A stretch of DNA of 64,000 nucleotides from Dermabacteraceae bacterium TAE3-ERU5 (GTDB taxonomy: Bacteria; Actinomycetota; Actinomycetes; Actinomycetales; Dermabacteraceae), in NCBI GenBank assembly GCA_019218375.1, contig JAHUUK010000006.1, positions 1 through 64,000 of the forward strand. Direction: 5' to 3'. Positions 9,002-41,083 of the stretch are shown piece by piece (position 1 is the first letter of the stretch; each line of letters opens with the position of its first letter). The notes under the pieces are model-generated. The model did no database searches. It saw only the letters and a program-made list of their open reading frames with translations, and was not told the DNA's origin. The position numbers and the translations under genes are program-made.

Positions 9002-9138
9002 TAACGTTTGGGTGCACTTCCCGCTGGTAATGCCACCTCCTTTACGTTTGGGTGCACTAACTGCTGTGAAAACGCGGTTTAACCCGCAGGAAGTGCACCT
9101 GAACGTAAGGGGCAACCAAAAGTGCACCCAGATGTAAC
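9002..9138 (+). repeat. GTGCAC-box composite repeat, array A
   Basis: Two direct boxes of the type ACGTTTGGGTGCAC start at 9004 and 9044. An AT-containing core (GAAAACGCGGTTTAACCC) follows, then two inverted boxes starting at 9093 and 9122. Start-to-start spacings are 40, 49 and 29. I see no gene in 8886-9003 or in the array; short frames that cross it are read-through of the repeat. Confidence 0.85.
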
Positions 9139-9840
9139 CCGGCACCGGCTTTCCACGCTCCGGCCCGGGCTGCTCCTGCGAAACCACCTGCCTTTGCGTG
9201 CGAACCTTGCGCCCCCATCGCGCGCTCTGACCTACGCCGCGAAATCCGGCCCGGAGGGGACGCATCTCCAAGCTTTCTTCAGGTTTGGTTCCTCCTCTAA
9301 ACCCTCTCCTGGCGGTGCGGGTCATCATGAAATACGGAGGAAACATCACCGGATACCTACACGTTTAGGGAGAAGGTGGGGCTGAGCCCCCAAATTTTTC
9401 TTTGGCAGTCCTCGTATTGCACTCCAGGGTGTTGTGCCTTTCGTTCGGTGGCTTATCGGGCCGTTCACGCATGCTTCCTATCGGCTGCAGGCCTTGCATG
9501 GTGGCCGCACTCCTGTTCGGGTTCGTTTGTGTGTACTGCGGGAGCTTCATTAACGCAGCTCATCCGAGGGATCGTTTTGCTATGGCAGGTATTGGTGAAG
9601 ATCTGGGGGAGGGGATGAGGCTGGGCGCCAACCTTCCTTGATCGGCTTCAACCGGTAACGTCTGAGCGCACTCTCTGCTGGTAACTTCCGCCCCTAACGC
9701 TTGGGTGCACTTCCCGCTGGTAATGCCACCTCCTTTACGTTTGGGTGCACTAACTGCTGTGAAAACGCGGTTTAACCCGCAGGAAGTGCACCTGAACGTA
9801 AGGGGCAACCAAAAGTGCACCCAGATGTAACCCGGCACCG
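9008..9840 (+). repeat. Exact 140-bp duplication (9008-9147 and 9701-9840) bracketing a 553-bp spacer
   Basis: Bases 9008-9147 and 9701-9840 are identical over 140 positions and diverge immediately outside on both sides. They carry most of arrays A and B. Perfect identity, when other arrays in the window have drifted, points to a recent duplication or gene conversion. Confidence 0.88.
9148..9655. other. Non-coding spacer between repeat arrays A and B
   Basis: I find no convincing gene here. The only notable element is a terminator-like hairpin at about 9378-9405 (GGGGCTGAGCCCC followed by AAATTTTTCTTT). It could end transcription coming from the helicase genes, although it lies about 490 nt downstream of them. 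The stretch 9360-9650 is less GC-rich than its surroundings and may be the remnant of an insertion. A 61-codon minus-strand frame (9365-9550) has no supported start or recognisable product. Confidence 0.4.
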
Positions 9841-9872
9841 TGGGTTTAAGCGAAAAGTGCACCTAGATGTGA
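9656..9872 (+). repeat. GTGCAC-box composite repeat, array B
   Basis: Six boxes: direct at 9658 (degenerate), 9697 and 9737, then inverted at 9786, 9815 and 9857. Spacings are 39, 40, 49, 29 and 42. Orientation is the same as array A, with one extra unit on each side. Confidence 0.85.
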
Positions 9873-9910
9873 AGGGGATGTGAGGAGGTGGGGCCGGACG
9901 CCACGCGCGC

Positions 9911-10015
9911 CCGGCCCCGGTGGCTCCGGCCGGGTGCCCGCTAAACCCCTCGCCTTTACGCAACCGGCTTGCTATGTTCCGGCCCCGGTGGCTCCGGCCG
10001 GGTGCCCGCTAAACC
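9911..10015 (+). repeat. 37-bp direct repeat containing a GC hairpin
   Basis: The same 37 bases occur at 9911-9947 and 9979-10015. Each copy contains an inverted repeat CCGGCC / GGCCGG around an 11-nt loop. No function is evident. Confidence 0.75.
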
Positions 10016-10184
10016 ATTCGGCCTTGCGCGGTCCAGCGCCTCAGCCTCCCAGCGCACCCCATCTAGCAGCCCACCTCACGCCCCGGCGGCACCACTCCGC
10101 CACCTCGCCAAGTGGCAAAGCTCGCCCAAGAATTAACTTGCGCGGAACCCCCAACAGCCTTTTAATAAAAGAAAGCTACTTAAC

Positions 10185-10260
10185 TAACGGGCAAATCGTT
10201 CTGTCGGCCAGAAAAGTTCGCTTCGGCGAAACTTTGTTACCCGGCAAAAAGCGCCCGTTA
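10185..10260 (+). other. Structured leader/RNA candidate upstream of the PTS operon
   Basis: An 8-bp closing stem (TAACGGGC 10185-10192 with GCCCGTTA 10253-10260) encloses a small stem TTCTG/CAGAA (10199-10213). It also encloses a strong hairpin at 10212-10235 with a TTCG tetraloop and one bulged A. The surrounding 10100-10520 is clearly more AT-rich than its neighbours and has no credible gene. A 10-bp palindrome ACACATGTGT lies at 10337-10346. The location, about 270 nt before the PTS start, suggests a regulatory leader, but I cannot match it to a known riboswitch class. Confidence 0.4.
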
Positions 10261-10527
10261 TCAAAATTTAATGTGAACGCTCGCATTCCCGGTTTCGGCA
10301 CCCTCCGCGGCGTGATTGTGCAGTTCATGGCGTTATACACATGTGTCATGCGCCTATAGCACCGCTCCGGCAAAGGCCCTAGAGTAAGTATTCCTTATCA
10401 CGCACAGCCGTTTTTCATTTCTAGGTCCCACCCTTTATAGGGGATGCTTAATCTCATTCGCGATGTTGCCGGGCCTTTATGTTAGTGGGATGTCGCGTTT
10501 TTTATGCATTTCGTTCAGGAGGAACCC

Positions 10528-13251
10528 ATGACAGGAACCGAGGTCGAGCTGCTTGCGCCGCTCACAGGCATCATGTTGCCGATAGAGTCCGTGCCGGACC
10601 CAGTGTTCGCCAAGAAGATGGTGGGAGACGGTTTCTCGATCGACCCGCTGGTGGGCGAACTGCGCGCCCCGGCCGACGGTGAAGTGGTGGACCTGCAGGC
10701 ATCCCAGCACGCCGTAACGCTGCGCACCGAGAACGGTCTCGAAGTGCTCATGCACATCGGCCTGGAAACTGTTGCCATGGAGGGCAATGGCTTTTTCGCG
10801 TCCGTGCGCGTGGGGGATCGCGTTAAGGCTGGCGATCTGCTGATTAGCTTTGATCTGGACACCGTTGCCCAGGGCGCACGCAGCGTGCTCACCCAGACCG
10901 TGGTTGCGAACATGGACACCGTGGCCAGCATTCGCATCGCCACCGGCAACGTCACCGCGGGCAAGGATGTCGCGGCATACGTAACCCTTTCTTCTTCTGC
11001 CACTTCCGCCGCCGCTGCTGCCGTGCCCGCCGCAGCCGCAGCCGCTGCCGGTGGTGCTCACGCTGCCGCTTCCGCAGCTCCTGCCGATGCCCCCGAGGGC
11101 ATCAAGGTTGCCGAAGCCGGCCCTGTAGTGGTTCCGAACCCGACCGGCCTGCACGCCCGCCCGGCCGCAACGCTGGTCTCCACCGCCAAGGAATTCGCTT
11201 CTGACGTGCGCATTAAGCGCGGCAGCGATTCCGCCAACGCGAAGAGCATCGTCTCGATCATGTCGCTTGGCGTGGCTAATGGCGAGGAACTCACCGTCGA
11301 AGCCACCGGCCCGGACGCGGAAGAAGCCGCGCAGGTTGTGGCCGACGCTATCCGTGGCGGCCTCGGCGAGGACTGCGGCAACGCCGCAGCCCCGGTAGCC
11401 GCTGCCGCAGCGGGAACCGCCGCTGCCGGTGCAGCTGCCACCGCCGCTGCCCAGGAACCCACCACCGAAACCGGTGGACTCAACGTGGACGCTCCCGCAG
11501 GTCTGGCCGCAGCGGCCAGCACCGAGTCCGTCCGCCCGCGCTCCGGAGACGAAAACCTCCTGGTCGGCGTGTCAGCCTCGCCCGGTCTGGCCGTCGGCAC
11601 CGTTTTCCAGGTGCGCCGTGAAGAGGTGGCTATCGAAGAGCACGCGGCCGACGCCGCTGCTGAGCGTTCCAAGCTGAACGCAGCCATCGACGCAGCTCTC
11701 TACGATCTGCGTATTTTGGAAAAGAAGGTCGAGGCCGAATCGGGTGCGGAACGCGCCGCGATTTTCGGTGCGCACCAGGAAATCCTGGGCGACCCCGACC
11801 TGCTCGACCGCGCTACCGTGCAGATCGCGGAAGGTAAGAGTGCCGCCTACGCTTGGCGTGCCTCCTACATCGCGCTCGCCAACCAGCTTGAAGGCCTCGA
11901 CAACGAGGTTCTTGCTGGGCGTGCCGTTGACGTTCGTGACGTCGGCCAGCGCGTACTGGACGGCCTGACCGGCACGAAGCGTGAAGCAGCCGAAATGCCC
12001 GAAGGCACGGTGCTGATTGCCGACGATCTCACCCCGTCGGACACTGCACAGCTTGACCGCAGCAAGGTGGTTGGTTTCGCTACCGTGCACGGCGGCGCGT
12101 CCTCGCACGTTGCGATCATCGCGCGTTCGCTCGACCTGCCCGCCGTGGCCGGTATCGAAGAGCGCGCCACCGAGATTGCCGACGGTAGCCGCGTAGTGCT
12201 CGACGGCACCGCCGGTACCCTGCGCAAGAACGTCAGCGAAGAACAGATCGCCGAGATTCAGCAGCGCCAGGCGCGCATGGCGGCGGCTAAGGCCGAAGCC
12301 GAAGCGCACAAGGACGAACCCGCCGTCACCAAGGACGGTCACCGTATCCAGGTCGTGGCTAACATCGGCAACGCCCAGGACGCGCGCGACTCCCAGGGTA
12401 AGGGCGGCGAGGGCGTCGGCCTGCTGCGCAGTGAGTTCGTGTTCATGGAACGCCGCAGCGCCCCCAGCGAAACCGAGCAGGCCGAGGTTTACTCGGAGTG
12501 CGCTCGCGCCCTGGCCCCCGGCCAGCCGCTGATCGTGCGTACCCTCGACGTCGGTGGCGACAAGCCGCTCGCCTACCTGCCCATCCCGCATGAAGAAAAC
12601 CCGTTCCTGGGCGTGCGCGGCGTGCGCGTCGGCCTGGAAAAGCCGGAAATCCTGCGCACCCAGATCCGCGCGATCCTTTCCGCGGCCGACGCGGGCGCGA
12701 AGATGCACATCATGTTCCCGATGATCGCCACGATCGCCGACTGGCGTCAGGCCAAGGCGATCTTCGACGAGGAACGTGCCAAGCACCCGACCACCGCCGA
12801 GATCAGCGTCGGCATCATGATGGAGGTCCCCTCCGTTGCGGTCATGGCTACCCAGTTCGCTAACGAGGAAGGGTGCGACTTCTTCAGCGTCGGCACCAAC
12901 GACCTCACCAGCTACACCCTCGCGATGGACCGGGGACACCCGAAGCTTGCCAGCCAGGTTGATCCCCTCAACCCGGCGGTGCTGAGCCTCATTCACAACG
13001 CCGCCGGTGCGCTGCACCGCAAGGGCAAGTGGCTGGGTGTCTGCGGCGGCGTCGCATCCGATCCGCAGGCCGTGCCGATCCTGATCGGCCTTGGAGTGGA
13101 CGAGCTGAGCTGCTCGATCCCCGCCATTCCCGAGGTGAAGGCGAGCGTGCGCGCATACTCGCTCGACGCCTGCAAGGAACTGGCCGCCCGCGCCCTGACC
13201 TGTGCAACCGCGGAAGAAGTACGTGCCCTGGTGCCCGTCGATAACGCGTGA
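10528..13251 (+). CDS. Multi-phosphoryl transfer protein EIIA(Glc)-HPr-Enzyme I
   Basis: The ATG at 10528 has AGGAGG five bases upstream, so it is preferred over an earlier ATG at 10504; the product is 907 residues. Residues ~1-150 are an EIIA(Glc)-type domain with the phospho-His in LMHIGLET (His76). After an Ala-rich linker comes HPr (GLHARPAAT, His209, with the Ser region AKSIVSIMSL). After a second Ala-rich linker comes Enzyme I, with the PEP-dependent active site in GGASSHVAIIA (His527) and the C-terminal PEP-binding TIM barrel ending near VCGGVASDP. One chain can therefore pass phosphate from PEP to EIIB. It lies 27 nt upstream of the EIIBC gene, so the pair forms an operon. Such fusions are known in some PTS proteins; the exact sugar is not shown by sequence. 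Confidence 0.92.
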   Translation: MTGTEVELLAPLTGIMLPIESVPDPVFAKKMVGDGFSIDPLVGELRAPADGEVVDLQASQHAVTLRTENGLEVLMHIGLETVAMEGNGFFASVRVGDRVKAGDLLISFDLDTVAQGARSVLTQTVVANMDTVASIRIATGNVTAGKDVAAYVTLSSSATSAAAAAVPAAAAAAAGGAHAAASAAPADAPEGIKVAEAGPVVVPNPTGLHARPAATLVSTAKEFASDVRIKRGSDSANAKSIVSIMSLGVANGEELTVEATGPDAEEAAQVVADAIRGGLGEDCGNAAAPVAAAAAGTAAAGAAATAAAQEPTTETGGLNVDAPAGLAAAASTESVRPRSGDENLLVGVSASPGLAVGTVFQVRREEVAIEEHAADAAAERSKLNAAIDAALYDLRILEKKVEAESGAERAAIFGAHQEILGDPDLLDRATVQIAEGKSAAYAWRASYIALANQLEGLDNEVLAGRAVDVRDVGQRVLDGLTGTKREAAEMPEGTVLIADDLTPSDTAQLDRSKVVGFATVHGGASSHVAIIARSLDLPAVAGIEERATEIADGSRVVLDGTAGTLRKNVSEEQIAEIQQRQARMAAAKAEAEAHKDEPAVTKDGHRIQVVANIGNAQDARDSQGKGGEGVGLLRSEFVFMERRSAPSETEQAEVYSECARALAPGQPLIVRTLDVGGDKPLAYLPIPHEENPFLGVRGVRVGLEKPEILRTQIRAILSAADAGAKMHIMFPMIATIADWRQAKAIFDEERAKHPTTAEISVGIMMEVPSVAVMATQFANEEGCDFFSVGTNDLTSYTLAMDRGHPKLASQVDPLNPAVLSLIHNAAGALHRKGKWLGVCGGVASDPQAVPILIGLGVDELSCSIPAIPEVKASVRAYSLDACKELAARALTCATAEEVRALVPVDNA

Positions 13252-13278
13252 GACTGCAGAAATAAAAGGAGAAAATAA

Positions 13279-15135
13279 GTGAGTAATGCAGCCGACATCG
13301 TGAAGGCGGTGGGCGGGGCCGGAAACATCCAGGGCCTCACGCACTGTGCAACACGGCTAAGGTTCCAGCTGGTTGACGCATCTAAGGTAGATGCCACCAC
13401 TGTAGATAAGATCCCCGGCGTGATGGGTTCGGTGCCGCAGAGCGGTGAGCGTTTCCAGGTCATCATCGGCGGTGCCGTGCAGACGGTATTCAACGAGATC
13501 AACGCCCTGCCCGAGATGAACGAGTCCAAGCAGCTCAGCGACGCCGAGCTTAAGGCTCAGGCCCGCTCCGGCGGCGTGCGCGGCAAGTCGGCCTTCATCG
13601 ACAACGCATTCGAGTTCCTTTCCGACTCGTTCCGTCCGATCCTGGGCTCCCTGCTGGGCGCGTCCCTGTTCATCACCTTCATGTCGCTGATGGCGACCCT
13701 GGGCGTGATCGGCAACTGGGCCAGCCCCGACACCGAGCTTTCCGCCAGCTGGCAGTTCATGAACCTGCTCTGGCAGTCCGTGTTCGTGTTCCTGCCGCTG
13801 ATGGTTGCCTACAACGCTTCCAAGAAGGTCGGTGCCGACCCGTGGGTTGGTTTCGCGATCATGGCGCTGCTGATGCTGCCTGGCTTCTCCGGCTTGGGCG
13901 CACACAAGGACGCCTACGAGATGAACCTGTTCGGCTTCACCGTGAAGATGATCGACATCTTCGGTGTGCCGCTTACCCTGCAGAACTACAGCTCGCAGGT
14001 ATTCCCGCCCCTGATCATGGCCCTCGTGCTGGGCGCCCTCTACAAGGGCCTCAAGAAGATCATCCCCGCTAACCTGCAGCTGATCTTCGTGCCGTTCCTC
14101 GCCATGCTGGTCATGCTGCCGCTGACCGCGTTCCTGATCGGCCCCATCGGTGTTTACGCTGGTGCTGGCCTGGCCGGTTTGCTGCAGTCGATCAACGAAT
14201 TCAACGCCGTCATCTTCGCCATCGCGATCCCGCTGGCCTACCCCTTCATGGTGCCGCTGGGCCTGCACTGGCCGCTGAACGCGATCATGCTCGCGAACAT
14301 CAGCACTTACGGCTACGACTTCATCCAGGGCCCCATGGGCGCATGGAACTTCGCCTGCTTCGGCGCTACCGCCGGTGTGCTTTACCTGGCATGGCGTGAC
14401 CGAGACACCACGATGCGTCAGACCGCTTCCGGCGCGCTGGCAGCCGGCCTGCTCGGTGGTATCTCCGAACCGTCCCTGTACGGCATCCACCTGCGCTACA
14501 AGCGCGTTTACCCGCGTATGCTCGCAGGCTGCTTCATCGGCGGTCTGATCATGGGCCTCGGCGGTGGCGTCACCATCAACGGCTTCGTGTTCACCTCGCT
14601 GATCACGATCCCGGCGTTCAACAACGTGCCGCTGTACGCCTCGGGTATCGCCGCCGCGTTCTTCACCGCGATGCTGCTGATCATCTTCACCGACTACCGC
14701 ACCCCGGAACAGCGTGAAGAGATCCGCGCCCGCGTTGCCGCTGAGGAAGCCGCCGCTAACGGTGCAGAGGCTCCCGCCGCTGCCGCCGCTCCGGTTGCCG
14801 CTAAGGCTGAGGCTCCCGTGGCCGCTGCTGCTCCGGCCGCTGCCGCTGCTCCGGCTGCTGTCGCTACCGCTACCGCCGTGGCTGAGGTTCCCGCCGACGC
14901 CGCCAGCAACTGGGTTGCCGGTCTGGGCGGCGCCGACAACATTGCTTCGGTTGACGCCGTGGCCGAAACCCGCGTGCGGGTTCAGGTTAAGGACGCCACG
15001 CTGGTTGATTCCGACGCTCTCGCCGCTAGCGGCGTGCAGGGTGTTGCCTCCCTCGGTGGCGGCATCTGGCACCTGGTCGTCGGCCTGAACGCCGATGCGC
15101 ACGCTGCCGAGCTGAAGGCCGCCGCTGGTCTGTGA
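13279..15135 (+). CDS. PTS permease EIIB-EIIC of the beta-glucoside/sucrose type with a second, Cys-less EIIB-like domain
   Basis: The GTG start at 13279 is preceded by AAGGAG; the product is 618 residues. The N-terminal EIIB has the phosphorylated Cys in THCATRLRF (Cys23). EIIC follows (about residues 105-460) with many membrane spans and the conserved GISEPSLYG. An Ala/Pro-rich linker (about 485-541) leads to a C-terminal EIIB-like copy (NWVAGLGGADNIASVDA, then ETRVRV) in which the Cys position holds no cysteine. B-C domain order is typical of beta-glucoside, sucrose, trehalose and MurNAc permeases. The required EIIA, HPr and EI are all on the upstream protein. The Cys-less copy cannot be a phosphate relay and may be structural or regulatory. 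Confidence 0.9.
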   Translation: MSNAADIVKAVGGAGNIQGLTHCATRLRFQLVDASKVDATTVDKIPGVMGSVPQSGERFQVIIGGAVQTVFNEINALPEMNESKQLSDAELKAQARSGGVRGKSAFIDNAFEFLSDSFRPILGSLLGASLFITFMSLMATLGVIGNWASPDTELSASWQFMNLLWQSVFVFLPLMVAYNASKKVGADPWVGFAIMALLMLPGFSGLGAHKDAYEMNLFGFTVKMIDIFGVPLTLQNYSSQVFPPLIMALVLGALYKGLKKIIPANLQLIFVPFLAMLVMLPLTAFLIGPIGVYAGAGLAGLLQSINEFNAVIFAIAIPLAYPFMVPLGLHWPLNAIMLANISTYGYDFIQGPMGAWNFACFGATAGVLYLAWRDRDTTMRQTASGALAAGLLGGISEPSLYGIHLRYKRVYPRMLAGCFIGGLIMGLGGGVTINGFVFTSLITIPAFNNVPLYASGIAAAFFTAMLLIIFTDYRTPEQREEIRARVAAEEAAANGAEAPAAAAAPVAAKAEAPVAAAAPAAAAAPAAVATATAVAEVPADAASNWVAGLGGADNIASVDAVAETRVRVQVKDATLVDSDALAASGVQGVASLGGGIWHLVVGLNADAHAAELKAAAGL

Positions 15136-15356: not shown

Positions 15357-15616
15357 TTACGCCTGGGTGCACTAACCGCAGGTAACTTCCTTGGCCCTAA
15401 CGTTTGGGTGCGCTTTGTGCAGGTAACTCCGTCTCCCTTAATGTTTGGGCGAATTAAGCGCCTGTCCCCCACCCCCTCCTTAACGTTTGGGTGCACTTTT
15501 TGCTGCCCCTTACGTTCAGGTGCACTTTGTGGGGGTTAAACCGCATTTTCGTAGCGTTTAGTGCACCCAAACGTTAGGGGGTGGGGATTACCGGCATGAA
15601 GTGCACCTAAACGTCA
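15357..15616 (-). repeat. GTGCAC-box composite repeat, array C (largest)
   Basis: Seven boxes: 15359, 15400, 15441 (degenerate), 15483 and 15512 in one direction, then 15561 and 15601 inverted. Spacings are 41, 41, 42, 29, 49 and 40. The core reads in the opposite orientation to arrays A, B and F. It sits in the gene-free 15136-16089 interval. Confidence 0.85.
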
Positions 15617-15654
15617 CCGCCGAAAGGCGAGGGGAGAGGGGGAAGCCTCGTCGG

Positions 15655-17564: not shown

Positions 17565-17700
17565 TTACGTTTGGGTGCACTTTTGGTTGGCCCTTACATT
17601 TGGGTGCACTTTTGGTGGGTTAAACCCCGTTTTCGTAGCAGTTAGTGCACCCAGACGTTAGGGGGTGGGGATTACCAGCATTAAGTGCACCCAGACGTTA
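17565..17700 (-). repeat. GTGCAC-box composite repeat, array D
   Basis: Four boxes at 17567, 17596, 17645 and 17685 (spacings 29, 49, 40), in mirror orientation to array A. The rest of 17340-17974 is G-rich non-coding DNA in which I see no gene. A TAATCT hexamer near 17896 could be part of the terC promoter. Confidence 0.85.
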
Positions 17701-19126: not shown

Positions 19127-20602
19127 CTATTCCCCGCTCACGATCCACGGCTCGCGCGGCATCGCGGCCGGGTCAAACACGCCCAGCAGCTCCGGTAGCG
19201 AACGCACGCCGGGGTAGCCGAGCGAGGTAGCGATCAACCCGATCACGTCGGCCCGGCTTTCCCCGCGCGCCAGCCTTTCCCGCAGCGTCACCGCGCCGTC
19301 GCGCTTCGCCAGCCGCTTTCCTTCGCCGTTCAGGGCGAGCGGCACGTGCACGTATTCGGGGGCCGCGATTCCCAGCAGGGAGCCAATCCAGGCTTGGCGT
19401 GGCGCGGAACTGAGCAGGTCGTCGCCGCGCGTCACCTGCCCCACCCCCTGGAACGCGTCATCGACCACCACGGCCAGGTTGTATGCCACCACGCCGTCAC
19501 CGCGCGTCAGCACCGTATCGTCCACCTGCCCCGTGTAGCGGCCCGCGAAACGGTCATAAACGGTGTGCGCAGGGTCGTCGGCCCACAGCCGCAGTGCCGG
19601 GGTGCGACGCAGCTCAGCCATGCGGGCCCGGCCCGCCTCGCGCTGGGCCGCCCCCAGCTCGCGGCAGGTGCCGGGGTAGGCACCGGGAGGCGCGTGTGGC
19701 GCGCTCGGGGCCGCCAGGATCTCGGCCCGCGTGCAGTAGCACTCGTAGCAAAGCCCGCGCCCGGTCAGATCGGCCAGCACCTCCCGGTAGGCGTCGGCCC
19801 GGCTCGACTGATAAAGCACCGGCCCGTCCCAGTCCACGCCCAGGGCCGACAGATCCTCTAGCTGCCTTTCGGCCGCTCCCGGCTTCACCCGGTCCAGATC
19901 CTCGACCCGCATCACGAAGCGTCGGCCCTCGCGCCGCGCGAAAAGCCAGGCCAGCACGGCGGTGCGCAGGTTCCCCAGGTGTAGGTCCCCGCTGGGGGAG
20001 GGCGCGTAGCGGCCCGCGCCGCAGAAACGCTGCGCGATCACATGGGGCGCGCCGAAGCCCGGCTCCTGCTCGTCTGTTTCGTGAAAGCCCAAGCTGGCCG
20101 ACAGCGCGCGCATGGGGGCGTTTCCCGCGTCGGTCACGATCACGGCGCGCTTCCCCGGAAAAGCCTCATCCACCTGGGCAAGCAGCGCTCGCAGGGCCTC
20201 GCGGGCGTAGCCCCTGCGCCAGTGCGCGGGGGAGATGCGCACGTACAGGTTTAGTACGTCTTCGCCGTTCAGGGGCAGGGTTTTCAGTCCCGCCACGCCG
20301 ATCGGGACGGGAGCGTCGGCGCCGGGCAGGCTGACGAGCGCGTACCCGCAGCCACCCGCCAGGCGGCGCTCCTCCCATTGCTCCATCACGTGTGCCATCT
20401 GCGCGGGGGAGGTCAGCGGTGGGGTCGTGTCGTGCGCGAACGCCGCCGGGTCACTGTGCAGGCGCGTTAGGAACTCCAGATCGCTCGCCGCAACGGTGGT
20501 GAGCAGCAGCCTTTCGGTGCGCAGCGGTGCGCCGGGCCGGGGCAGCGGCGGTTGCTGGTTGTCGGCACTTGCGCGGGCGGGGCGGGGCGGGGATGTAGGC
20601 AT
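19127..20602 (-). CDS. gluQ: GNAT acetyltransferase fused to glutamyl-Q tRNA(Asp) synthetase
   Basis: The ATG at 20602 (MPTSPPRPAR, GGTGG upstream) gives 491 residues; an earlier in-frame ATG at 20692 lacks support. Residues ~26-190 are a RimJ/RimL-type GNAT domain with the acetyl-CoA loop WRRGYAREAL. From residue ~196 the protein is a GluQRS: RYAPSPSGDLHLGN (HIGH-like signature), a zinc site CYECYC with later Tyr and Cys, and the KMSKS-like KRLAKRDGAV. GluQRS activates glutamate without tRNA and attaches it to queuosine 34 of tRNA-Asp; there is no anticodon-binding domain, as expected. Fusion to a GNAT domain is unusual and its substrate is unknown. The two domains are in one uninterrupted frame. 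Confidence 0.88.
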   Translation of the reverse strand: MPTSPPRPARASADNQQPPLPRPGAPLRTERLLLTTVAASDLEFLTRLHSDPAAFAHDTTPPLTSPAQMAHVMEQWEERRLAGGCGYALVSLPGADAPVPIGVAGLKTLPLNGEDVLNLYVRISPAHWRRGYAREALRALLAQVDEAFPGKRAVIVTDAGNAPMRALSASLGFHETDEQEPGFGAPHVIAQRFCGAGRYAPSPSGDLHLGNLRTAVLAWLFARREGRRFVMRVEDLDRVKPGAAERQLEDLSALGVDWDGPVLYQSSRADAYREVLADLTGRGLCYECYCTRAEILAAPSAPHAPPGAYPGTCRELGAAQREAGRARMAELRRTPALRLWADDPAHTVYDRFAGRYTGQVDDTVLTRGDGVVAYNLAVVVDDAFQGVGQVTRGDDLLSSAPRQAWIGSLLGIAAPEYVHVPLALNGEGKRLAKRDGAVTLRERLARGESRADVIGLIATSLGYPGVRSLPELLGVFDPAAMPREPWIVSGE

Positions 20603-20737
20603 TAACGGGCCACCGTGAATAGATAAGCGGGCGATATGTGTGTAGACAAGGCGACGGCGGCACCCGTCGCGGGTACCGCCGTCGCGTATCACCTACCTAG
20701 CTGGGATGTCCCGGCCAGGCAGGATAGGCAGAAAGAA

Positions 20738-25036: not shown

Positions 25037-25212
25037 CGACGTCCGGGTGCGCTTTTTGCTGTCCCTTACGTTCAGGTGCACTTTGTGGGGGTTAAACCGC
25101 GTTTTCGTAGCGTTTAGTGCACCCAAACGTAACGGGGCGGGGATTACCGGCATGAAGTGCACCCAAACGTTAGGGGGCGGGGGTTATCTGCGGAAAGTGC
25201 ACCAGAACGTAA
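25037..25212 (-). repeat. GTGCAC-box composite repeat, array E
   Basis: Five boxes at 25039, 25068, 25117, 25157 and 25197 (spacings 29, 49, 40, 40). Orientation is as arrays C and D. It starts less than 100 bp from the DnaA-box cluster. The remaining 25213-25376 has no gene. Confidence 0.85.
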
Positions 25213-33663: not shown

Positions 33664-36663
33664 GTGACCCTTGTCTGGACCCTTGCTGTGCTAGCCGCAG
33701 CGGTGGCACTCACGCCCCTGATGTCGCGCCCGTTGGGCCGCGCTCTGGGTTGGCCGCTGGCTGCGTTTTACCTGGTTGCGACCGCCGTCTTCCTGCCTGC
33801 CGTCAGTGAAGTCCTAAACGGTAAGACCCCCGAATTCAGCGTTCCCTGGATTCCTCAGTTGGGGGTGGAGTTTGCGCTGCGCGCCGACGGTCTCGGGGTG
33901 GTATTCACCCTGATCGCCCTCGTGATCGGTGCCGTAGTTTTCGTCTACTCCACCAAATACTTAGAAGAGGGGCCGCAGCTCAGCTTCTACCTGGTGATGG
34001 CGACCTTCACCCTGGCCATGGTCGGCCTGGTGCTCGCTAACGACCTGGTGCTGCTGTTCATCTGCTGGGAACTAACCAGCCTCGCCTCCTTCCTGCTGAT
34101 CGCCCGCTCCGGGGTGGGCGGGGAAGCGCCCTCGATGCGCACCCTGCTGATCACCTTCATCGGCGGCCTGTTGCTGCTCGCGGCAGTGGCCCTGATGATC
34201 GGCAAGATCGGCACCGGCAACGTGCACGAGGTCCTGACCTCCAGCGTGTGGCGCGACGATCCCGCCTTCACCGGGCTGGTGGCCGCTCTGGTGGCGCTCG
34301 CCGCCTGCACGAAGTCGGCGCAGTTCCCGTTCCACGTCTGGCTGCCCGACGCGATGGCGGCCGCCACGCCGGTTTCCGCGTACCTGCACGCGGCGGCAGT
34401 GGTGAAAGCCGGCATCTTCCTGCTGCTGCGCTTCACCCCGGCATTCCACGACGCCTACCTCTGGCACGCCATTTTGATCCCGGCGGGCCTGGTGACGGCG
34501 TTCATCGGCGGCTGGTTCGCGCTGCAGCAAAGCGACGTGAAGAAACTGATGGCGTATTCGACCGTGAGCCAGCTCGGCCTGATCGTCGCCGTGATCGGCG
34601 TCGGCACCGAAATCGCCATCATGGCTGCCGTGCTACACACCATCGCGCACGCCCTGTTCAAGTCGGGCCTGTTCATGATGGTCGGCGTTATCGACCACAC
34701 CGCACACACCCGCGATCTGCGCAGGCTACCCGCGCTCTACCGCTACATGCCGGTCAGCTTCACCGTCACCATCCTGGGCTGCGCCTCCATGGCGGGCCTG
34801 CCGCCCATGCTCGGCTTCGTTTCCAAGGAATCGCTGCTGACGGGCGCGCTGGATTCGCCCTACGGCAGCTCCCTGGGGTGGGCCGTGGCGCTCGGTATAG
34901 CCGCCGCCTCCATCCTGACCTTCACCTACTGCGCCAAGATTGTGCTTAACGGTTTCGTTGACGCCCGGGGCGGCGCGGAAGCGGCGGAACGCGACCTGCA
35001 CCCGGTGGATCCGATCATGCTCGGCGCCGCCGCGCTGCCCATCGTCGCCAGCCTGCCGCTCGGCATCCTGGTCGGCGTCCTGGACACCCCGGTCGCGCAG
35101 GCCACCCGCGCCGCCTTCGCGGGACGCGGCGAGGCCGGGCACGGCGTCCACCTGGCGCTGTTCCACGGCATCACCCCCGAACTGGGGCTGACGCTCGTCA
35201 TCGTCACCGCCGGTATCGCGCTCACCCTGGTGCGCGGCCGCTTCTTCGCCTGGTGCGAGGAGCATCCGTTCCTGTTCACGGGTGCCGACGTGATCGAGCG
35301 CGTGCACATGCTCAGCGGCAAACTCGGCCGGGCGCTCGCCAAGCCGATCGCCAGCGACGACCCGATGCGCCACCTGGCCTCCATCGTCGTCAGCCTCACC
35401 GTGCTGGTGGCGGCGTCGTTCCTGACCGTGCGCGGCTCCCTGGCACCGCTGCAGCCGAACCTGAACCAGCCGATCGATCTGCTGGTGCTGGTCCTGATCA
35501 GCTGCGCCGTGTTCCTGGTTTGCAGCACCGACTCGCGCCTGTCGGCCACCGTAGCCCTGAGCGCGGTAGGCATCGTGGTGACCGTGCAGATCCTGGCGCT
35601 CGGCGCGCCCGACGTAGCGCTCACCCAGCTGCTCGTCGAATCCCTCACCGTCATCGTGATCATGCTGGTGCTGCAGAAGCTCCCGCTCACGTTCGGTAAG
35701 GCGGGCTGGCGGCGTCGGCCCATCATCACCGTGATCGCAATCGCCGCCGGTCTCGCGGCAGGCGGTATCACCTACATGTTCGCCGCGCGCCGCAGCCGTT
35801 CCGACCTGGCGCTCGAATACATCAACCACGCCCACGACATCACGGGCGGACACAACATCGTGAACGTGATCCTGGTGGAGTTCCGTGCCTTCGATACCAT
35901 GGGCGAACTCGCGGTGCTCGGCATGGCGGGCATCGCTATCGTGGCGGTGCTTTCCACCGTGCGCCACGAGTTCCTGGACCCCTCCCCGGAGGAGGACCGC
36001 AACTACGTGCCCGCGCCGGAAATCCCGCTGCGCCCCAAGGGCAGCCCCGCGCATCGCGCAATCATGTCCGCCTGGGGCAACGCGGCGGCGATGCAGTTCA
36101 TGGTGAGGGTGCTTACCCCGATCCTGATTCTGATTTCGCTCGGCCTGTTCCTGCGCGGCCACAACGCGCCCGGCGGTGGCTTCATCGCCGCCCTCGTCGG
36201 TTCCGCGATCATCGGCCTGATCTACCTTTCCACCTCGGAGGATCGCCAGATCGGCCCGCCGCGCCTGCCGATCCTGCTGATCGGCTTCGGCATCCTGATC
36301 GCCATCGGCACCGGCCTGGCCGGATACCTGGAAACCGGCTTCCTGGACGCCATGCACGGCCATATCGGCCCCGAGCACGTCTCTAGCTCCATGGTGTTCG
36401 ATGTCGGCGTTTACCTCGCCGTGCTCGGCCTGGTCATGATGAGCTTCAACCTGCTCGGCACCTCCGGTCTGCTGGAGCGCACCGGGCGGGAAGAACAGAC
36501 CAGGGAACGCGCCGACGAAGCGTTCGAGGGCGAACTGCCCCACCCGCTGCGCACAGTGCGCGGCAAGCGCTGGCAGGCCCGCGTCGCCAAACGGCGCGCC
36601 CGCGTCGGCGCCTCCACCAGCCATGTTTCTGACGGAACCCGACCCGAGGAGCCAGGCCGCTGA
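33664..36663 (+). CDS. mrpA: Na+/H+ antiporter subunit A with fused MrpB domain
   Basis: The GTG at 33664 has AAGGAT upstream. The 999-residue protein combines the ND5-like proton-channel part (FICWELTSLASFLLI, and HAAAVVKAGIFLLLR with its membrane Lys), a DUF4040/MbhE-like region, and a C-terminal MnhB domain (LRGHNAPGGGFIAALV). There is no separate mrpB gene, consistent with this fusion. As the largest subunit of the multi-subunit Mrp complex it exchanges cytoplasmic Na+ for H+ in alkaline or saline stress. Its stop overlaps mrpC by one base (TGATG). Confidence 0.95.
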   Translation: MTLVWTLAVLAAAVALTPLMSRPLGRALGWPLAAFYLVATAVFLPAVSEVLNGKTPEFSVPWIPQLGVEFALRADGLGVVFTLIALVIGAVVFVYSTKYLEEGPQLSFYLVMATFTLAMVGLVLANDLVLLFICWELTSLASFLLIARSGVGGEAPSMRTLLITFIGGLLLLAAVALMIGKIGTGNVHEVLTSSVWRDDPAFTGLVAALVALAACTKSAQFPFHVWLPDAMAAATPVSAYLHAAAVVKAGIFLLLRFTPAFHDAYLWHAILIPAGLVTAFIGGWFALQQSDVKKLMAYSTVSQLGLIVAVIGVGTEIAIMAAVLHTIAHALFKSGLFMMVGVIDHTAHTRDLRRLPALYRYMPVSFTVTILGCASMAGLPPMLGFVSKESLLTGALDSPYGSSLGWAVALGIAAASILTFTYCAKIVLNGFVDARGGAEAAERDLHPVDPIMLGAAALPIVASLPLGILVGVLDTPVAQATRAAFAGRGEAGHGVHLALFHGITPELGLTLVIVTAGIALTLVRGRFFAWCEEHPFLFTGADVIERVHMLSGKLGRALAKPIASDDPMRHLASIVVSLTVLVAASFLTVRGSLAPLQPNLNQPIDLLVLVLISCAVFLVCSTDSRLSATVALSAVGIVVTVQILALGAPDVALTQLLVESLTVIVIMLVLQKLPLTFGKAGWRRRPIITVIAIAAGLAAGGITYMFAARRSRSDLALEYINHAHDITGGHNIVNVILVEFRAFDTMGELAVLGMAGIAIVAVLSTVRHEFLDPSPEEDRNYVPAPEIPLRPKGSPAHRAIMSAWGNAAAMQFMVRVLTPILILISLGLFLRGHNAPGGGFIAALVGSAIIGLIYLSTSEDRQIGPPRLPILLIGFGILIAIGTGLAGYLETGFLDAMHGHIGPEHVSSSMVFDVGVYLAVLGLVMMSFNLLGTSGLLERTGREEQTRERADEAFEGELPHPLRTVRGKRWQARVAKRRARVGASTSHVSDGTRPEEPGR

Positions 36664-36995
36664 TGATAATTTCCCTCACCGTAACCGTGCTCGTGGCGGG
36701 CGGCGTCTACCTGATGCTGCAGCGTTCCATGGTGCGCGCCGTCTTCGGCATGGGCCTGATCAGCCACGCCGCCAACCTGATGCTGCTGGTCACGGGCGTT
36801 CCCGGCTGGCGCGGGGAACCGCTTACCAACGCCACCTCGGCGCAGCAAATGGCAGATCCGCTCCCGCAGGCGTTCGTGCTTACCTCCATCGTGATCACGC
36901 TCGCCGTCACCATCTTCATGCTGGCGCTCGCCGTCATTGGCCACAATGACGACGTCGCCCACCACCCGAACACGGGGGAGACGCACGAATCATGA
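36663..36995 (+). CDS. mrpC: Na+/H+ antiporter subunit C
   Basis: The 110-residue, three-helix protein is of the NuoK/MrpC type (GMGLISHAANLMLL, then FVLTSIVITLAVTIFMLAL). It overlaps mrpA by one base and mrpD by four (ATGA), so translation is coupled. It forms part of the ion-translocating core. Confidence 0.95.
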   Translation: MIISLTVTVLVAGGVYLMLQRSMVRAVFGMGLISHAANLMLLVTGVPGWRGEPLTNATSAQQMADPLPQAFVLTSIVITLAVTIFMLALAVIGHNDDVAHHPNTGETHES

Positions 36996-38536
36996 ACCCT
37001 GTCCTACTACCGCTCTTCGTAGCGATACCGATGGCGGGGGCCGCCCTCACCATCATCTTCCGCCAGCGCCCCTTCCAACTGGCGGTGCTGACGCTGGTGC
37101 CGACCCTGATCTTCGCAGGCGGCGGCTGGCTCCTAGCCACCCACCAGGAAACCCCGGTAGTCGCCCACAACGTGGGCGGGTACGTGGAAGGCATCGCGAT
37201 CCCGTTCGTGAGCGATAGCTTCTCCGCGCTCATGCTGATGGTCACCTCCCTCGCGGGAGGGGCCGCGATCTGGTTCATGACCCGCACCGGAGAAATCCGC
37301 TACCGCGCCGTCCCCGCGCTCACCCTGCTGCTGCTGGCGGGCGTGAACGGGGCGCTGCTCACCGGCGACCTCTTCAACCTGTTCGTCTGGGTAGAGGTCA
37401 TGCTGATGCCGTCCTACGCGCTGATCGCCGTCACCGGCACCTGGCGCAGGCTCGGCGTGGGCCGCATGTTCGTGCTGGTAAACCTGCTCACCTCCACCGT
37501 GCTGCTGATCGGTGTGGGCATGGTTTACGGCACCGCGGGCACCGTCAACCTGGCGCTGCTGAGCGGCGCGGGCAACCACAACCCGGTCACCGCCGCGGCG
37601 CTCGGAATTGTGCTGCTCGCGCTCGCCGTGAAAGCCGGTGTGGTGCCCGTGCACGGCTGGCTACCGCGCTCCTACCCGGCCACGTCGGCCGGCATTATGG
37701 CCCTGTTCAGCGGCCTGCACACCAAGGTGGCGCTGGTTGCGATGTACCGCATCGTCTCCGTGACGTTCCGCGACGGCATTCCCTTCCTGGGGCTGTTCAC
37801 CGCACTGGTGGTCGTGACCATGGTGGTCGGGGCGTTCTCCACCACCGCTTCGCGCTGGCTGCGTTCCGCGCTGGCGTTCCAGATGGTGGCGGGCGTCGGC
37901 CACATCCTGATCGGCCTGGTGCTGCTGACGGAAATCTCCCTCGCCGCAGGCATTCTCTACATGGTGCACCACATCGTCACCATGTCGGCCCTGGTGATGA
38001 GCACCGGCGCCATCGAACACGTCTACGGCACCGGCAGGCTCGACTACATTCGCGGTCTGGCCAGGCGCGATCCGGTAGTGATTACCGTGATAGCGCTCGG
38101 CTTCTTCTCGCTGGTCGGCCTGCCCCCCACCTCCGGTCTGTGGGGCAAGCTGGCGCTTATGAACGCGGCCGGAGCGAAAGCCACCGCACCGCTCATAAAC
38201 GCCGAGGGAGTAGATACCTCTTACGTGATAATCGCAGCGGTCATTTTGGCATCCATCGGCTCCATGCTGGCGCTGCAGCAGGTATGGCGCACAACCGCCT
38301 GGGGTGCGCCGATGGAAACCTACCGGCCCGACGACGAATCGCGCGGGCGAGGCGACGCGGTGCCGCTGCCCGACACGGTACGTATCCCGTTCTCCCTGGC
38401 CGCTCCCAGCGTGGCGATGATGGGCGTCTCCGTGGCGATGTTCTTGGGAATCGGGCTGATCATGCCCTACTTCCAGGCTGCGGCGCACTCGCTGATAGAT
38501 GTCGATACCTACGTGAAGGTGGTGCTGGGTAAGTAA
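36992..38536 (+). CDS. mrpD: Na+/H+ antiporter subunit D
   Basis: The 514-residue protein is an ND2/ND4-like antiporter subunit with about 14 helices. It carries the conserved acidic helix LFNLFVWVEVMLMPSYALI, a membrane Lys in ALAVKAGVVPVHGWLP, and GLPPTSGLWGK. It starts in an ATGA overlap with mrpC and ends in a TAATG overlap with mrpE. Together with MrpA it provides the proton path. Confidence 0.95.
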   Translation: MNPVLLPLFVAIPMAGAALTIIFRQRPFQLAVLTLVPTLIFAGGGWLLATHQETPVVAHNVGGYVEGIAIPFVSDSFSALMLMVTSLAGGAAIWFMTRTGEIRYRAVPALTLLLLAGVNGALLTGDLFNLFVWVEVMLMPSYALIAVTGTWRRLGVGRMFVLVNLLTSTVLLIGVGMVYGTAGTVNLALLSGAGNHNPVTAAALGIVLLALAVKAGVVPVHGWLPRSYPATSAGIMALFSGLHTKVALVAMYRIVSVTFRDGIPFLGLFTALVVVTMVVGAFSTTASRWLRSALAFQMVAGVGHILIGLVLLTEISLAAGILYMVHHIVTMSALVMSTGAIEHVYGTGRLDYIRGLARRDPVVITVIALGFFSLVGLPPTSGLWGKLALMNAAGAKATAPLINAEGVDTSYVIIAAVILASIGSMLALQQVWRTTAWGAPMETYRPDDESRGRGDAVPLPDTVRIPFSLAAPSVAMMGVSVAMFLGIGLIMPYFQAAAHSLIDVDTYVKVVLGK

Positions 38537-38949
38537 TGCGTATCTTCTACTGGGCCAGTTACCTGCTGTTCATCCTGCGTGAGATCATCGCGGGATCGCT
38601 GCGGATCGCCGTGGAAGCGTTTACCCCCGGCACCTCCACCAAACCGGCCATCATCGAATACCACCTGGCCGGAACCTACGATTTCGAGGTAATCGCGCTC
38701 GCCTCGTCGATCACGATTACCCCCGGCACGCTGGTGCTCGGTACGGCCTCCGGAAACTCGGAAGAGGGGGCAACCCTCTACGTGCACGCCATGTTCGCGG
38801 ATAGCCGTGAAGAGGTAGTCGCCTCCTTGCGCGACATGGAGGACCGTTTGCTGCGGGCCTCTCGCGGCAAGGAGGGGGCGCGCCTGGCGCGCGAGGCCGA
38901 ATACGAATACCAGCGTCGGCACGCGAACGACCCGAAGGAGCAAGCATGA
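38536..38949 (+). CDS. mrpE: Na+/H+ antiporter subunit E
   Basis: The 137-residue MrpE has an N-terminal hydrophobic part and the conserved ASSITITPGTLVLG segment. It overlaps both neighbours (TAATG with mrpD, ATGA with mrpF). MrpE is an accessory membrane subunit needed for full activity and assembly. Confidence 0.94.
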   Translation: MRIFYWASYLLFILREIIAGSLRIAVEAFTPGTSTKPAIIEYHLAGTYDFEVIALASSITITPGTLVLGTASGNSEEGATLYVHAMFADSREEVVASLRDMEDRLLRASRGKEGARLAREAEYEYQRRHANDPKEQA

Positions 38950-39212
38950 TCGTGACCATTTCCGCCGGGATCGCCATCGTGCTGCTGGCATTCACGATCC
39001 TGCTCGGCCTGCTGCGCATCGCCTCCAGTAAGGACGGCGCGAGCCGCGCTGTGGTGGGCGACCTCGTGTTCTTCTGCGCCATCGGCATCATGGTGATCCT
39101 GGGAATCCTGACCCCCTCCACCGTGGTTATTGACGCCACCCTGATCGCGTCCCTGCTGGGCGTGCTCGCGACCATCGCGCTGGCCCGCATCCTCACCCGT
39201 GGAAGGCGCTAA
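38946..39212 (+). CDS. mrpF: Na+/H+ antiporter subunit F
   Basis: The 88-residue protein has three helices, including the MrpF-type VIDATLIASLLGVLATIALAR. An AAGGAG lies seven bases before the ATG, and the start overlaps the mrpE stop. Confidence 0.94.
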   Translation: MIVTISAGIAIVLLAFTILLGLLRIASSKDGASRAVVGDLVFFCAIGIMVILGILTPSTVVIDATLIASLLGVLATIALARILTRGRR

Positions 39213-39214
39213 AC

Positions 39215-39577
39215 ATGCTGATAGACATCATCATTTCGCTGCTGCTCATCGTCGGTGCACTGGCCACCCTGGTGTCGGCCGTGGCCATGTTCCGGGCGCG
39301 TGACGGCTATACCCGCATCAACGTGCTCGGCGTAGCCACCGGCGTTGGCCTCCCGCTGATCGTTTGCGCGGCGTTTATCTACCACACCACCTACGACGGC
39401 TTCTCCTGGCTGTATCTGGCCCGCGCCGTGCTGACGGTGCTTGCCCTGATCATCGTTTCCTCCGTTGCCTCCAACGTGCTGGCGCGCGCCGCCTACATGT
39501 CGGGAGCGGAGATCGACCCGCGCACCAGCCCGCAGGACCTCGCGGTACAGCCCGACATCAGCGCCGACCGCGCCTGA
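39215..39577 (+). CDS. mrpG: Na+/H+ antiporter subunit G
   Basis: The 120-residue MrpG has three helices and the signature MFRARDGYTRINVLGVATGVG. The start is two bases after the mrpF stop. It is the last gene of the operon and is followed by a strong terminator. Confidence 0.94.
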   Translation: MLIDIIISLLLIVGALATLVSAVAMFRARDGYTRINVLGVATGVGLPLIVCAAFIYHTTYDGFSWLYLARAVLTVLALIIVSSVASNVLARAAYMSGAEIDPRTSPQDLAVQPDISADRA

Positions 39578-39593
39578 ACAAACGAAAGGGAAC

Positions 39594-39615
39594 GGGGCCG
39601 TAACATTACGGCCCC
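39594..39615 (+). terminator. Terminator of the mrp operon
   Basis: GGGGCCGTAA and TTACGGCCCC, with weaker outer pairing GGAA/TTCC, followed by TTCCTTC. Confidence 0.85.
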
Positions 39616-39633
39616 ATTCCTTCATGTGCGGCG

Positions 39634-39639
39634 TAACCT
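39634..39639 (+). promoter_or_regulatory. -10 element TAACCT for argE
   Basis: TAACCT, six bases, then ATG 39646. A GGTGG just upstream of the ATG would be absent from or at the very end of such an mRNA. Confidence 0.5.
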
Positions 39640-39645
39640 GGTGGC

Positions 39646-40845
39646 ATGACTGCACTCCCCACCGAGCCGCGCGCCGCCGTGAGCGCGCTGCTGGCGCTAG
39701 ATACCACCTCCGTAAAAGGCACCCTGCCCGTTATCGCGCTGCTGGAAGAAACCTTCGCGGCGGCGGGCGCGCAGGTGCACCGTTTCGTGGAGCCCGACGG
39801 GGTGAAGGCGAACCTGGTGGCGAGCTTCCCCGCCGCGGATGGCAGCCTGGAGGGCGGCGTCTTGCTGGCGGGCCACGCGGACTGCGTGCCCGTGGAGGGG
39901 CAGGTATGGACCACCCCGCCGTTTACGCCGACGGAGCGCGATGGGCGCATCTACGGGCGCGGGGCGTGCGACATGAAAGCGTTCCTGGCGCTTATCGCAT
40001 GCGTAGCGCCGGAGATAGCGTCGGCCCGGCTTAGCGAGCCTATTCACGTGGGCGTGACCTGGGACGAGGAGGTTACGGCGGACGGTGCCCGCGCGCTCGT
40101 CGGCCAGCTTGCACAGCTGGGGATTCACCCGCGTATCGCATTCGTGGGGGAGCCCTCGAACATGCGCGCTATCGGGGCGCATAAGTCCATGAACTCTTTT
40201 ACCGCGACCTTCCGCGGGATTGCGGCCCATTCTTCGCTGCTGCCGCGCGGGCTTAACGCCATCCGCTACGCCGCGCAGTTCATTGAGTTCTTCCACCGGG
40301 AGGTGGTCGATGAACTGCGCGAGAACGGCCCGCGCGATGACGCCTACCCGGTGCCGTACACCACCGGCGGAGTGAACGTGGTGCGCGGCGGCATAGCCCG
40401 CAATACGGTGCCTGACCTGGTGGAACTAAACTTCGAGTTCCGCGCTCTGCCCGAGATCGCGGTGGCCCCCATCGTGGCGAAGATCGAGGCCGAGATAGCC
40501 CGCCTGGATGCTGAAATGAAAGCGGCGGTGCCCGCCGATCCGGCCAGCGACGCGAGCCTGGTCGGAGCCGAACTGGAAATCGTTACGCTGCTGGCGGGCC
40601 TGGCCAGCGGTCCCGAATCCGAGGCCGCGCGCTACGCCGTGCGGCTGGGCGCGCACCCCACGGGCGAAAAGGTCACCTACGGCACCGAGGCCGGCATCTA
40701 CGAGGCCGCCGGTATGAGCGCGGTGGTGGTCGGCCCCGGAGACATCGCCCAGGCGCACGCCGCCGACGAATACATCAGTTACGAACAGCTAGACGAGTGC
40801 CTGGCGTTCCTACGCAACCTGATAGCCGATCTTTCGCACGGTTAG
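39646..40845 (+). CDS. argE: M20 family acetylornithine deacetylase
   Basis: The 399-residue metallo-hydrolase has the M20 metal ligands and catalytic residues in order: GHADCVP, GRGACDMKAF, WDEEVTADG, GEPSNM and the final GPGDIAQAHAADEY. The WTTPPFTPTERDG loop is typical of ArgE rather than of DapE. It would deacetylate N-acetylornithine in arginine synthesis or act on a related N-acyl amino acid. No other arg genes are nearby, so substrate assignment rests on similarity alone. Confidence 0.82.
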   Translation: MTALPTEPRAAVSALLALDTTSVKGTLPVIALLEETFAAAGAQVHRFVEPDGVKANLVASFPAADGSLEGGVLLAGHADCVPVEGQVWTTPPFTPTERDGRIYGRGACDMKAFLALIACVAPEIASARLSEPIHVGVTWDEEVTADGARALVGQLAQLGIHPRIAFVGEPSNMRAIGAHKSMNSFTATFRGIAAHSSLLPRGLNAIRYAAQFIEFFHREVVDELRENGPRDDAYPVPYTTGGVNVVRGGIARNTVPDLVELNFEFRALPEIAVAPIVAKIEAEIARLDAEMKAAVPADPASDASLVGAELEIVTLLAGLASGPESEAARYAVRLGAHPTGEKVTYGTEAGIYEAAGMSAVVVGPGDIAQAHAADEYISYEQLDECLAFLRNLIADLSHG

Positions 40846-40906
40846 CAGGCCGCGCCGGGGCTGTTTTGATGGCACGGCATGGGGCCTCGAGTGCTAGCGG
40901 CACGCG

Positions 40907-41083
40907 CTAACGCTTGGGTGCACTTCATGCCGGTAATCCCCACCCATTAACGCTTGGGTGCGCTTTCTGCTGGTAACCCCGATGCCGTTACGTTTGGGTG
41001 CACTAAACGCTGCGAAAACGCGGTTTAACCCCCACAAAGTGCACTCAAACGTAAGGGGCAGCGAAAAGTGCACCCAAACGTCA
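40907..41083 (+). repeat. GTGCAC-box composite repeat, array F
   Basis: Five boxes at 40910, 40950, 40990, 41039 and 41068 (spacings 40, 40, 49, 29), oriented as arrays A and B. It fills most of the gap between the convergent argE and ABC-exporter genes. Confidence 0.85.

Follow-up and report, generated by a model that had tools for sequence, protein, structure and literature searches.

GTGCAC-box arrays of a Dermabacteraceae genome and a Vsr/DUF559-like protein as their candidate partner

The window analyzed here, a stretch of 64,000 nt from Dermabacteraceae bacterium TAE3-ERU5 (assembly GCA_019218375.1, contig JAHUUK010000006.1, positions 1-64,000), carries six intergenic arrays of a box centered on GTGCAC, termed arrays A to F. 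The arrays are real, occur throughout the genome, and belong to a wider pattern, and their geometry, dispersal and conservation, their association with a gene, and sequence traces left by copying and by the gain or loss of genes at arrays are all directly visible in the genomes compared. Outside the window, a gene for a nuclease-like protein is located between two flanking arrays, and this protein is quite probably the cognate partner of the arrays. We favor, as the probable explanation, that the arrays are the non-coding half and the nuclease-like gene the other half of a protein-repeat system that resembles RAYT/REPIN but relies on an unrelated enzyme; the chances that the flanked protein also drives the spread of the arrays are about even. 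Such a repeat-and-enzyme system looks undescribed and self-maintaining.

Within the window, 40 box matches were counted at up to 3 mismatches against 5.9 expected, with a maximum of 11 over 100 shuffles. All six arrays of the original prediction were found at their positions, and 29 of its 31 boxes passed the threshold of a position weight matrix, while the other two (at about 9658 and 15441) are degenerate. In the entire host assembly (1.917 Mb in 11 contigs), 185 box matches with up to 2 mismatches compare with 16 for the reversed pattern, and a model of the core sequence gave 102 matches, both strands counted, which were grouped into 48 loci. In the fetched stretches, arrays of two or more boxes number at least 48 in the host and at least 41 in a sister species; these are lower bounds, as the first scan scored 150 of 416 host candidates and the sister matches are those listed only. 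Weak single matches, three in the host and four in the sister, were dropped from the counts. In the following, G000 denotes the host genome, G001 the sister and G410 an Olsenella genome, and L numbers denote individual stretches or loci. Two of 47 genomes of the GTDB family match the core model, both from the same genus, and among 396 genomes of the order the host is the sole match. A scan of viral contigs with the tandem-box pattern gave 0 matches.

The spacing of the boxes is nearly invariant. Among 89 convergent box pairs of host and sister, 86 are exactly 49 bp apart, one is 50 bp and two are 79 bp apart, and 167 of the 172 tandem steps in the arrays of both species measure 28-29 or 39-43 bp. 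The near-fixed 40-49-29 geometry first read from the window is thereby borne out genome-wide; random spacing of the genome-wide copies, which would have spoken against it, was looked for and not found. Measured between GTGCAC centers, the steps of the unit are 40, 41 and 29 bp, and the odd 49 bp arises because boxes on opposite strands were measured from their left ends. The refined box matrix approximates TWACGTTTGGGTGCACTW, and the boxes are 14-18 bp long. Across 51 full units, conservation extends to the spacers and the core (CTAAcTGCTGcGAAAACGcGGTTTAACCC) and ends just beyond the outer boxes. It is therefore whole units of about 135 bp that are repeated, not a geometry alone. On this point the original prediction was wrong in stating that the intervening bases differ, and the idea that nothing but the geometry is kept is not supported. 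Each array is an element of about 135 bp with optional extra boxes, and short palindromes of two boxes occur too.

Open reading frames (ORFs) were read in some of the gaps beside arrays, and ten ORFs were scanned. The nuclease-like gene is located at G000:C5:10179-11153 (match coordinates; L306:1501-2496), encodes 331 aa, and lies between inverted arrays at C5:9442 and 11585. Its sister ortholog is likewise placed between inverted arrays, the protein lengths in the two species being 331-356 aa, and a profile search of host and sister returned a single homolog per genome. The C-terminus of the protein matches the Pfam family MTES_1575 (PF18741, a Vsr-type restriction endonuclease, REase) with an E value of about 1e-5, and among 20 family members at E ≤ 0.01 three match PF18741 and one matches PF04480. 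Of the residues, E226, D259 and R288 occur in all 21 homologs compared and E270 in 20 of them, a pattern that would fit a PD-(D/E)XK/Vsr active site. In some members, the N-terminal half matches AbiEi models of PADLOC (best 7e-11, at most 5 of 20 members per model), which suggests that it may be a DNA-binding part in these proteins. Between host and sister, the ratio of non-synonymous to synonymous substitution (dN/dS) of the gene is 0.075. Four of the proteins gave no match in an NCBIfam scan, and a PDB sequence search gave no credible match. Of 296 genomes sampled over the phylum, 76 carry the family at E ≤ 1e-10. The original prediction had suggested looking for a co-occurring DNA-binding or REP-type transposase gene. 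A co-occurring gene exists, and it encodes the Vsr/DUF559-like protein, not a REP-type transposase: a search for the Y1 transposase (PF01797; RAYT) had no match in either host or sister, and a control search matched 6 of 14 named genomes.

GTGCAC arrays are present in further genomes. A tandem-box scan of genome contigs returned Olsenella profusa An794, an uncultured Atopobiaceae metagenome-assembled genome (MAG), six stretches of TAE3-ERU27 and one uncultured Clostridia MAG, the last of which was set aside by eye as an apparent coding repeat without any core. The Olsenella genome, from a different actinobacterial class than the host, holds 60 GGGTGCACTT against 5 of the control, and none of 120 other genomes of its family exceeds 10. 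Of its 19 clusters with at least four GTGCAC, 13 contain the steps 32-30-16 when read in one direction, and outer steps of 13 bp are frequent. This genome, too, has a homolog of the Dermabacteraceae protein placed between a pair of inverted arrays. A loose triple-GTGCAC pattern matched 68 of 396 genomes of a draw across the phylum, mostly with few matches; second to the host itself, the genome G626 stands out with 21 matches and 0 for the control. The two G626 arrays that were read both end in the steps 31-30-43-30, and one of them adjoins a homolog. Further genomes with this pattern were G734 (9 matches) and G688 and G864 (5 each), with 0 control matches in all three. A common box is expected in these genomes because the search used the box; the presence of the same protein family next to the arrays was not a search criterion.

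Other members of the protein family are accompanied by other boxes. Among the homologs of G410, G409, G626, host and sister, 12 of 21 beat all 60 Markov shuffles on their best 8-mer. Arrays of GTACGTAC flank a gene on both sides in G410, where the left and right steps are identical, and they also occur, with other steps, beside the ortholog in G409. The box GTTAGGAA appears in mirror image on both sides of a paralog gene, and ACCGTCCG and AAGTCACG are different boxes on both sides of further paralogs. Two of these four words also form a solo array elsewhere in 14 G410 stretches and two do not, and the reversed words form no cluster. Different boxes at different paralogs imply that protein and box may have co-evolved.

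For a broader sample, the 30 top-scoring genomes of the phylum draw supplied 28 further loci, one best match from each of 28 genomes; the loci of the other two, L330 and L331, duplicate members of the existing set. Nine of these 28 exceed their shuffles on the 8-mer test, and a value of 6 was reached by 7 of the 28 compared with 4 of 117 control windows. Inspection by eye found repeats on both sides at L333, L339, L340, L343 and L357 (L332 and L344 were not inspected), and it rejected the repeat words at L338 and L354, a 15-bp tandem and a scattered word, both coding-like. When the left flank was scored directly against the right, 22 of 49 homologs (11 of 21 and 11 of 28) reached at least 20 and 27 remained below, compared with 2 of 163 control windows. 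Both passing control windows lie in GTGCAC arrays, and one is the Olsenella homolog itself. The control windows were drawn from G000, G001 and Olsenella stretches only, and the p-values are descriptive, as the threshold of 20 was set after the scores were known. Not all loci are independent, as L305/L306, L317/L322 and L343/L344 are pairs of close relatives. L350, L353, L355, L358 and L359 passed at scores of 20-30 without a look by eye, with L358 one above its shuffles, and the gene end of L322, an over-long ORF left out of A3, was set by hand. In a family tree of 45 of the 49 members (without L340, L352, L355 and L359), those with flank repeats are scattered, and the association with repeats thus looks old in the family while the box sequences change.

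These data also bear on the possibility that the arrays are a family of miniature inverted-repeat transposable elements (MITEs) of an ordinary transposase or insertion sequence (IS), unrelated to the nuclease, with the gene adjacent by chance. The inverted-repeat structure, the dispersal, and differences in presence between the species agree with such an origin. It is nevertheless very improbable, as the Y1 transposase is absent from both genomes, none of the 10 ORFs examined beside arrays is a transposase (other IS families were not searched), and the same protein family recurs between shared repeats at loci that were not selected by the box.

The arrays of the window are listed in Table 1. 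Two other ORFs of the window were noted: one at 19127-20692 (-) joins a GNAT acetyltransferase domain to a following class I (Glu/Gln) tRNA synthetase catalytic domain, and one at 10504-13251 (+) is an EIIA-HPr-EI fusion of the phosphotransferase system (PTS) in a single protein of 915 aa, followed by an EIIBC gene.

Table 1. GTGCAC-box arrays of the 64,000-nt window (positions in nt of the window).
Array	Position	Strand	Boxes	Gene context
A	9002..9137	+	One full unit 40-49-29, 4 boxes	Flanked by a UvrD-like helicase gene and a PTS gene
B	9656..9872	+	Unit 40-49-29 plus outer boxes at 39 (degenerate) and 42 bp	
C	15357..15616	-	Unit 40-49-29 plus box tail at 42-41-41 (one degenerate)	Gap between convergent genes
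D	17565..17700	-	Single full unit	Upstream of a TerC-family gene
E	25037..25212	-	Unit plus one additional 40-bp box	
F	40908..41083	+	Unit plus one additional 40-bp box	Between convergent M20 peptidase and ABC transporter genes

Comparison with the sister revealed a turnover of arrays. Arrays A and B share an identical block of 140 bp (9008-9147 = 9701-9840) with different sequence on either side, and the sister has a single array at the site of this pair. Of 36 host arrays, 18 resemble a paralog as closely as their ortholog or more closely. Array F is absent from the sister, where a much shorter gap separates the same two genes and the empty site is too diverged to define the ends of the element. 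In another case, a glycosyltransferase-like gene (PF05637) is situated between two direct arrays of the sister (L099:5017-6294, G001:C1), and the host has one array instead at L073, combining the left flank of the sister's first array with the right flank of the second, as would be expected from an exchange between arrays or from the gain of a gene-plus-array unit.

Other gene content next to arrays also differs between the species. In the host, genes for an NgoMIV-like restriction enzyme and a C5 cytosine methylase follow an array (L079:5581-7434, G000:C7), and at the sister counterpart L115 the next conserved stretch comes almost directly after the array. Hsp70-like and DnaJ-TPR genes adjoin a sister array (L112:5754-8478, G001:C12) in a stretch that is unmatched at L076 of the host.

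In total, 38 of the 48 host arrays pair with a sister array (35 distinct), leaving 10 host and 4 sister arrays unpaired in the fetched stretches. The comparison between the species was ungapped and covered 36 of the 38 pairs; because it was ungapped, outer boxes and flanks appear more diverged than they are. Across these 36 pairs, the differences amount to 9 of 432 sites (2.1%) in GTGCAC, 69 of 1008 (6.8%) in the inner boxes, and 131 of 1260 (10.4%) in the core spacer, compared with a pooled synonymous difference (pS) of 17.1% (0.171) over 185 gene pairs. The intergenic flanks of the arrays are nearly unalignable between host and sister. The boxes evolve more slowly than synonymous sites, i.e., they are constrained.

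Constraint of this kind could in principle act on RNA, with the arrays serving as long hairpins at transcript ends, either as REP-like stabilizers or as terminators. The inner boxes are able to form a 20-bp stem, the consensus energy of the six window cores is -32.7 kcal/mol, and the arrays are biased towards gene 3' ends, as described below. Pairing was, however, no better than in shuffled data: for the 51 units, inner pairing scored 668 vs 669.6 in shuffles and outer pairing 644 vs 642.9, and for 84 distinct cores the score of 1105 vs 1099.9 was reached by 112 of 1000 shuffles. No pair in the six window cores carries a two-sided compensatory change, the consensus is without a T-run, and an Rfam 15 scan of the window at the gathering score yielded 0 matches. 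None of the palindromic RNA candidates in the available part of PMC8040213 could be tied to GTGCAC arrays. The absent covariation favors independently constrained DNA sites over an RNA stem, and an RNA function is very improbable.

With regard to placement, genes were called with a simple purpose-made gene finder, and one host array at a contig end was left unjudged. None of the 88 judged arrays of host and sister lies inside a gene, in agreement with what had been claimed for the window. Host arrays occupy 17 convergent, 3 divergent and 27 co-oriented gaps (17 vs 3, p = 0.003), and array sides face gene 3' ends 61 times vs 5' ends 33 times. This placement bears on a further alternative, in which a regulator or nucleoid-associated protein, which might be the nuclease-like protein itself, binds the arrays as immobile platforms that act as insulators, terminators or boundaries, with the gene-flanking arrays being autoregulatory. 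The constrained boxes, the mostly conserved positions, the regular spacing of GTGCAC centers, and the preference for 3' ends and for convergent over divergent gaps can all be read in this way. Yet arrays are rare in divergent, i.e., promoter-containing gaps, copies differ between the species and are partly homogenized, the nuclease motif is retained in its catalytic residues, and many paralog genes have repeats on either side and not upstream only. We regard fixed platforms as possible but unlikely.

Along the largest sister contig, 9 of 25 arrays are within 50 kb of dnaA compared with 3.0 expected, which would suit segregation or origin sites similar to parS. The surroundings of the nuclease gene are equally dense, with 9 arrays within 50 kb and 4 within 10 kb vs 0.6 expected, two of these four being the flanking pair. 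An explanation of array placement by the origin only was rejected, as the clustering fits the nuclease gene equally well. The parS consensus is TGTTTCACGTGAAACA. Sequences similar to it (≤2 mismatches) are dense at L069:3916-4603 (G000:C5; 7 sites) and L161:11765-12727 (G001:C1; 11 sites), and both clusters have DnaA-box-like sequences and a degenerate box array nearby, with dnaA some 6-8 kb away. The array boxes are ACGTTTGGGTGCAC and the parS-like clusters are separate from them, so the arrays themselves were rejected as parS. Considering also that only 2 of 47 family genomes have arrays, a role in segregation or at the origin is exceedingly improbable.

Two readings had been offered in the original prediction: a multimeric DNA-binding protein, or else a palindromic element that is mobile. 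Both gain support from the genome-wide spacing, the slow evolution of the boxes, the lack of RNA covariation, the traces of copying, loss and exchange, and the co-occurring gene, and the prediction as a whole is partly supported. A mechanism uniting the two can be proposed. The N-terminal part of the protein would bind the boxes, and a multimer would assemble on the 40-41-29 lattice of GTGCAC centers. The nuclease might then cut or nick at arrays and promote copying, conversion or exchange between them, a process that would spread and homogenize the arrays in intergenic gaps. The gene between two inverted arrays would resemble a master copy.

Several observations weigh against this interpretation. 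Of the 49 homologs, 25 are without a shared-repeat signal, including L316, a close relative of the positive L311, and the G626 homolog has an array on one side only. Where flank repeats exist, the direct match is better in 14 homologs and the inverted match in just 8 of 22, so inversion is no family rule. The GTGCAC-associated proteins of three lineages belong to different clades, and the tree therefore does not prove co-evolution of protein and box. On the protein side, the PF18741 score of 23.9 bits is below the curated cut-off of 38.2, the host protein has no match to the AbiEi models, and a single-sequence structure prediction reached a predicted local distance difference test (pLDDT) value of 33, so that the model was left unused. 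The pS of the nuclease gene (0.436, L306 vs L305) is far above the genome value of 0.171, which is unexplained. As to mobility, the traces of copying and exchange, as read from sequence, do not discriminate a dedicated enzyme from general recombination, and duplication and exchange could be ordinary RecA recombination between repeats of about 130 bp. No target-site duplication was found at the array F site, the only one looked at, and the 38 of 48 host arrays with a sister counterpart indicate slow movement. Binding, cleavage, mobilization and a host benefit are steps that we infer.

Extending the proposed protein-repeat system to the family is a more tentative step, and we hold it to be somewhat improbable in its full form: the actinobacterial Vsr/DUF559-like proteins would be masters of self-maintaining repeats, each with its own box and fixed array, spreading by a process of cutting and conversion that differs from known transposition and creating points of gene exchange. 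If the protein-repeat reading is right, a widespread but poorly annotated actinobacterial protein family would gain a DNA target and a likely role. Many natural protein-box pairs would become available for reading changes in DNA-binding specificity, and there would be a testable model for the persistence of repeat populations in small genomes.

Among known repeats, the BOX elements of pneumococcus are modular and intergenic with a variable number of modules, and differ from the arrays in sequence and module lengths; we know of no cognate gene for BOX. AbiE systems are similar with respect to the AbiEi-model matches in the N-terminal half of some members, and are set apart by the nuclease-like C-terminus and the flanking arrays found here and by the host protein, which lacks an AbiEi match. 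Beside the host copy, no complete ORF of more than 173 aa other than the gene itself exists in the 3,975-bp stretch L306, which leaves no gene of AbiEii size as judged by length only, without a family search. Similarity to MTES_1575/DUF559 Vsr-type REases consists of the weak PF18741 match below cut-off and the retained E...D...E pattern. The part of PMC3710099 that deals with MTES_1575 describes it as one domain (about residues 1810-1990) within a large conflict protein and leaves repeats unmentioned. In contrast to this prototype, the proteins reported here are stand-alone, about 320-395 aa long, and many are located between repeats. In open-licence PMC text, preprints excluded, nothing was found that links such arrays to DUF559/MTES_1575 proteins.

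The closest parallel is RAYT/REPIN, also called TnpA-REP. As described in the literature, RAYT genes are always flanked by two inverted REPs (PMC2817692), RAYTs of P. fluorescens SBW25 are single-copy entities, each with its own REPIN type (PMC3116915), and a REP is a palindrome of 20-40 bp with a GTAG/CGTC tag (PMC3733652). The present system shares with them a single chromosomal nuclease-type gene between its own repeats (in host, sister and Olsenella, and in 22 of 49 homologs by flank score), non-autonomous intergenic copies dispersed over at least 48 host loci, and several distinct protein-repeat pairs within one genome. It differs in the enzyme, which is an HUH (Y1) transposase there and a Vsr/DUF559-like protein here, and in the repeat, which here is a multi-box unit of about 135 bp with fixed center spacing and without a GTAG/CGTC tag at its ends. 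The orientation of the flanking repeats varies across the family, being inverted in host, sister and Olsenella, and the hosts found here are actinobacteria. Given the lack of a Y1 match, a repeat that is not a REP, the variable orientation and the other enzyme superfamily, the protein is not a RAYT. By analogy, the array system may nevertheless work like RAYT/REPIN, which would thereby gain an independently evolved parallel on a different nuclease fold.

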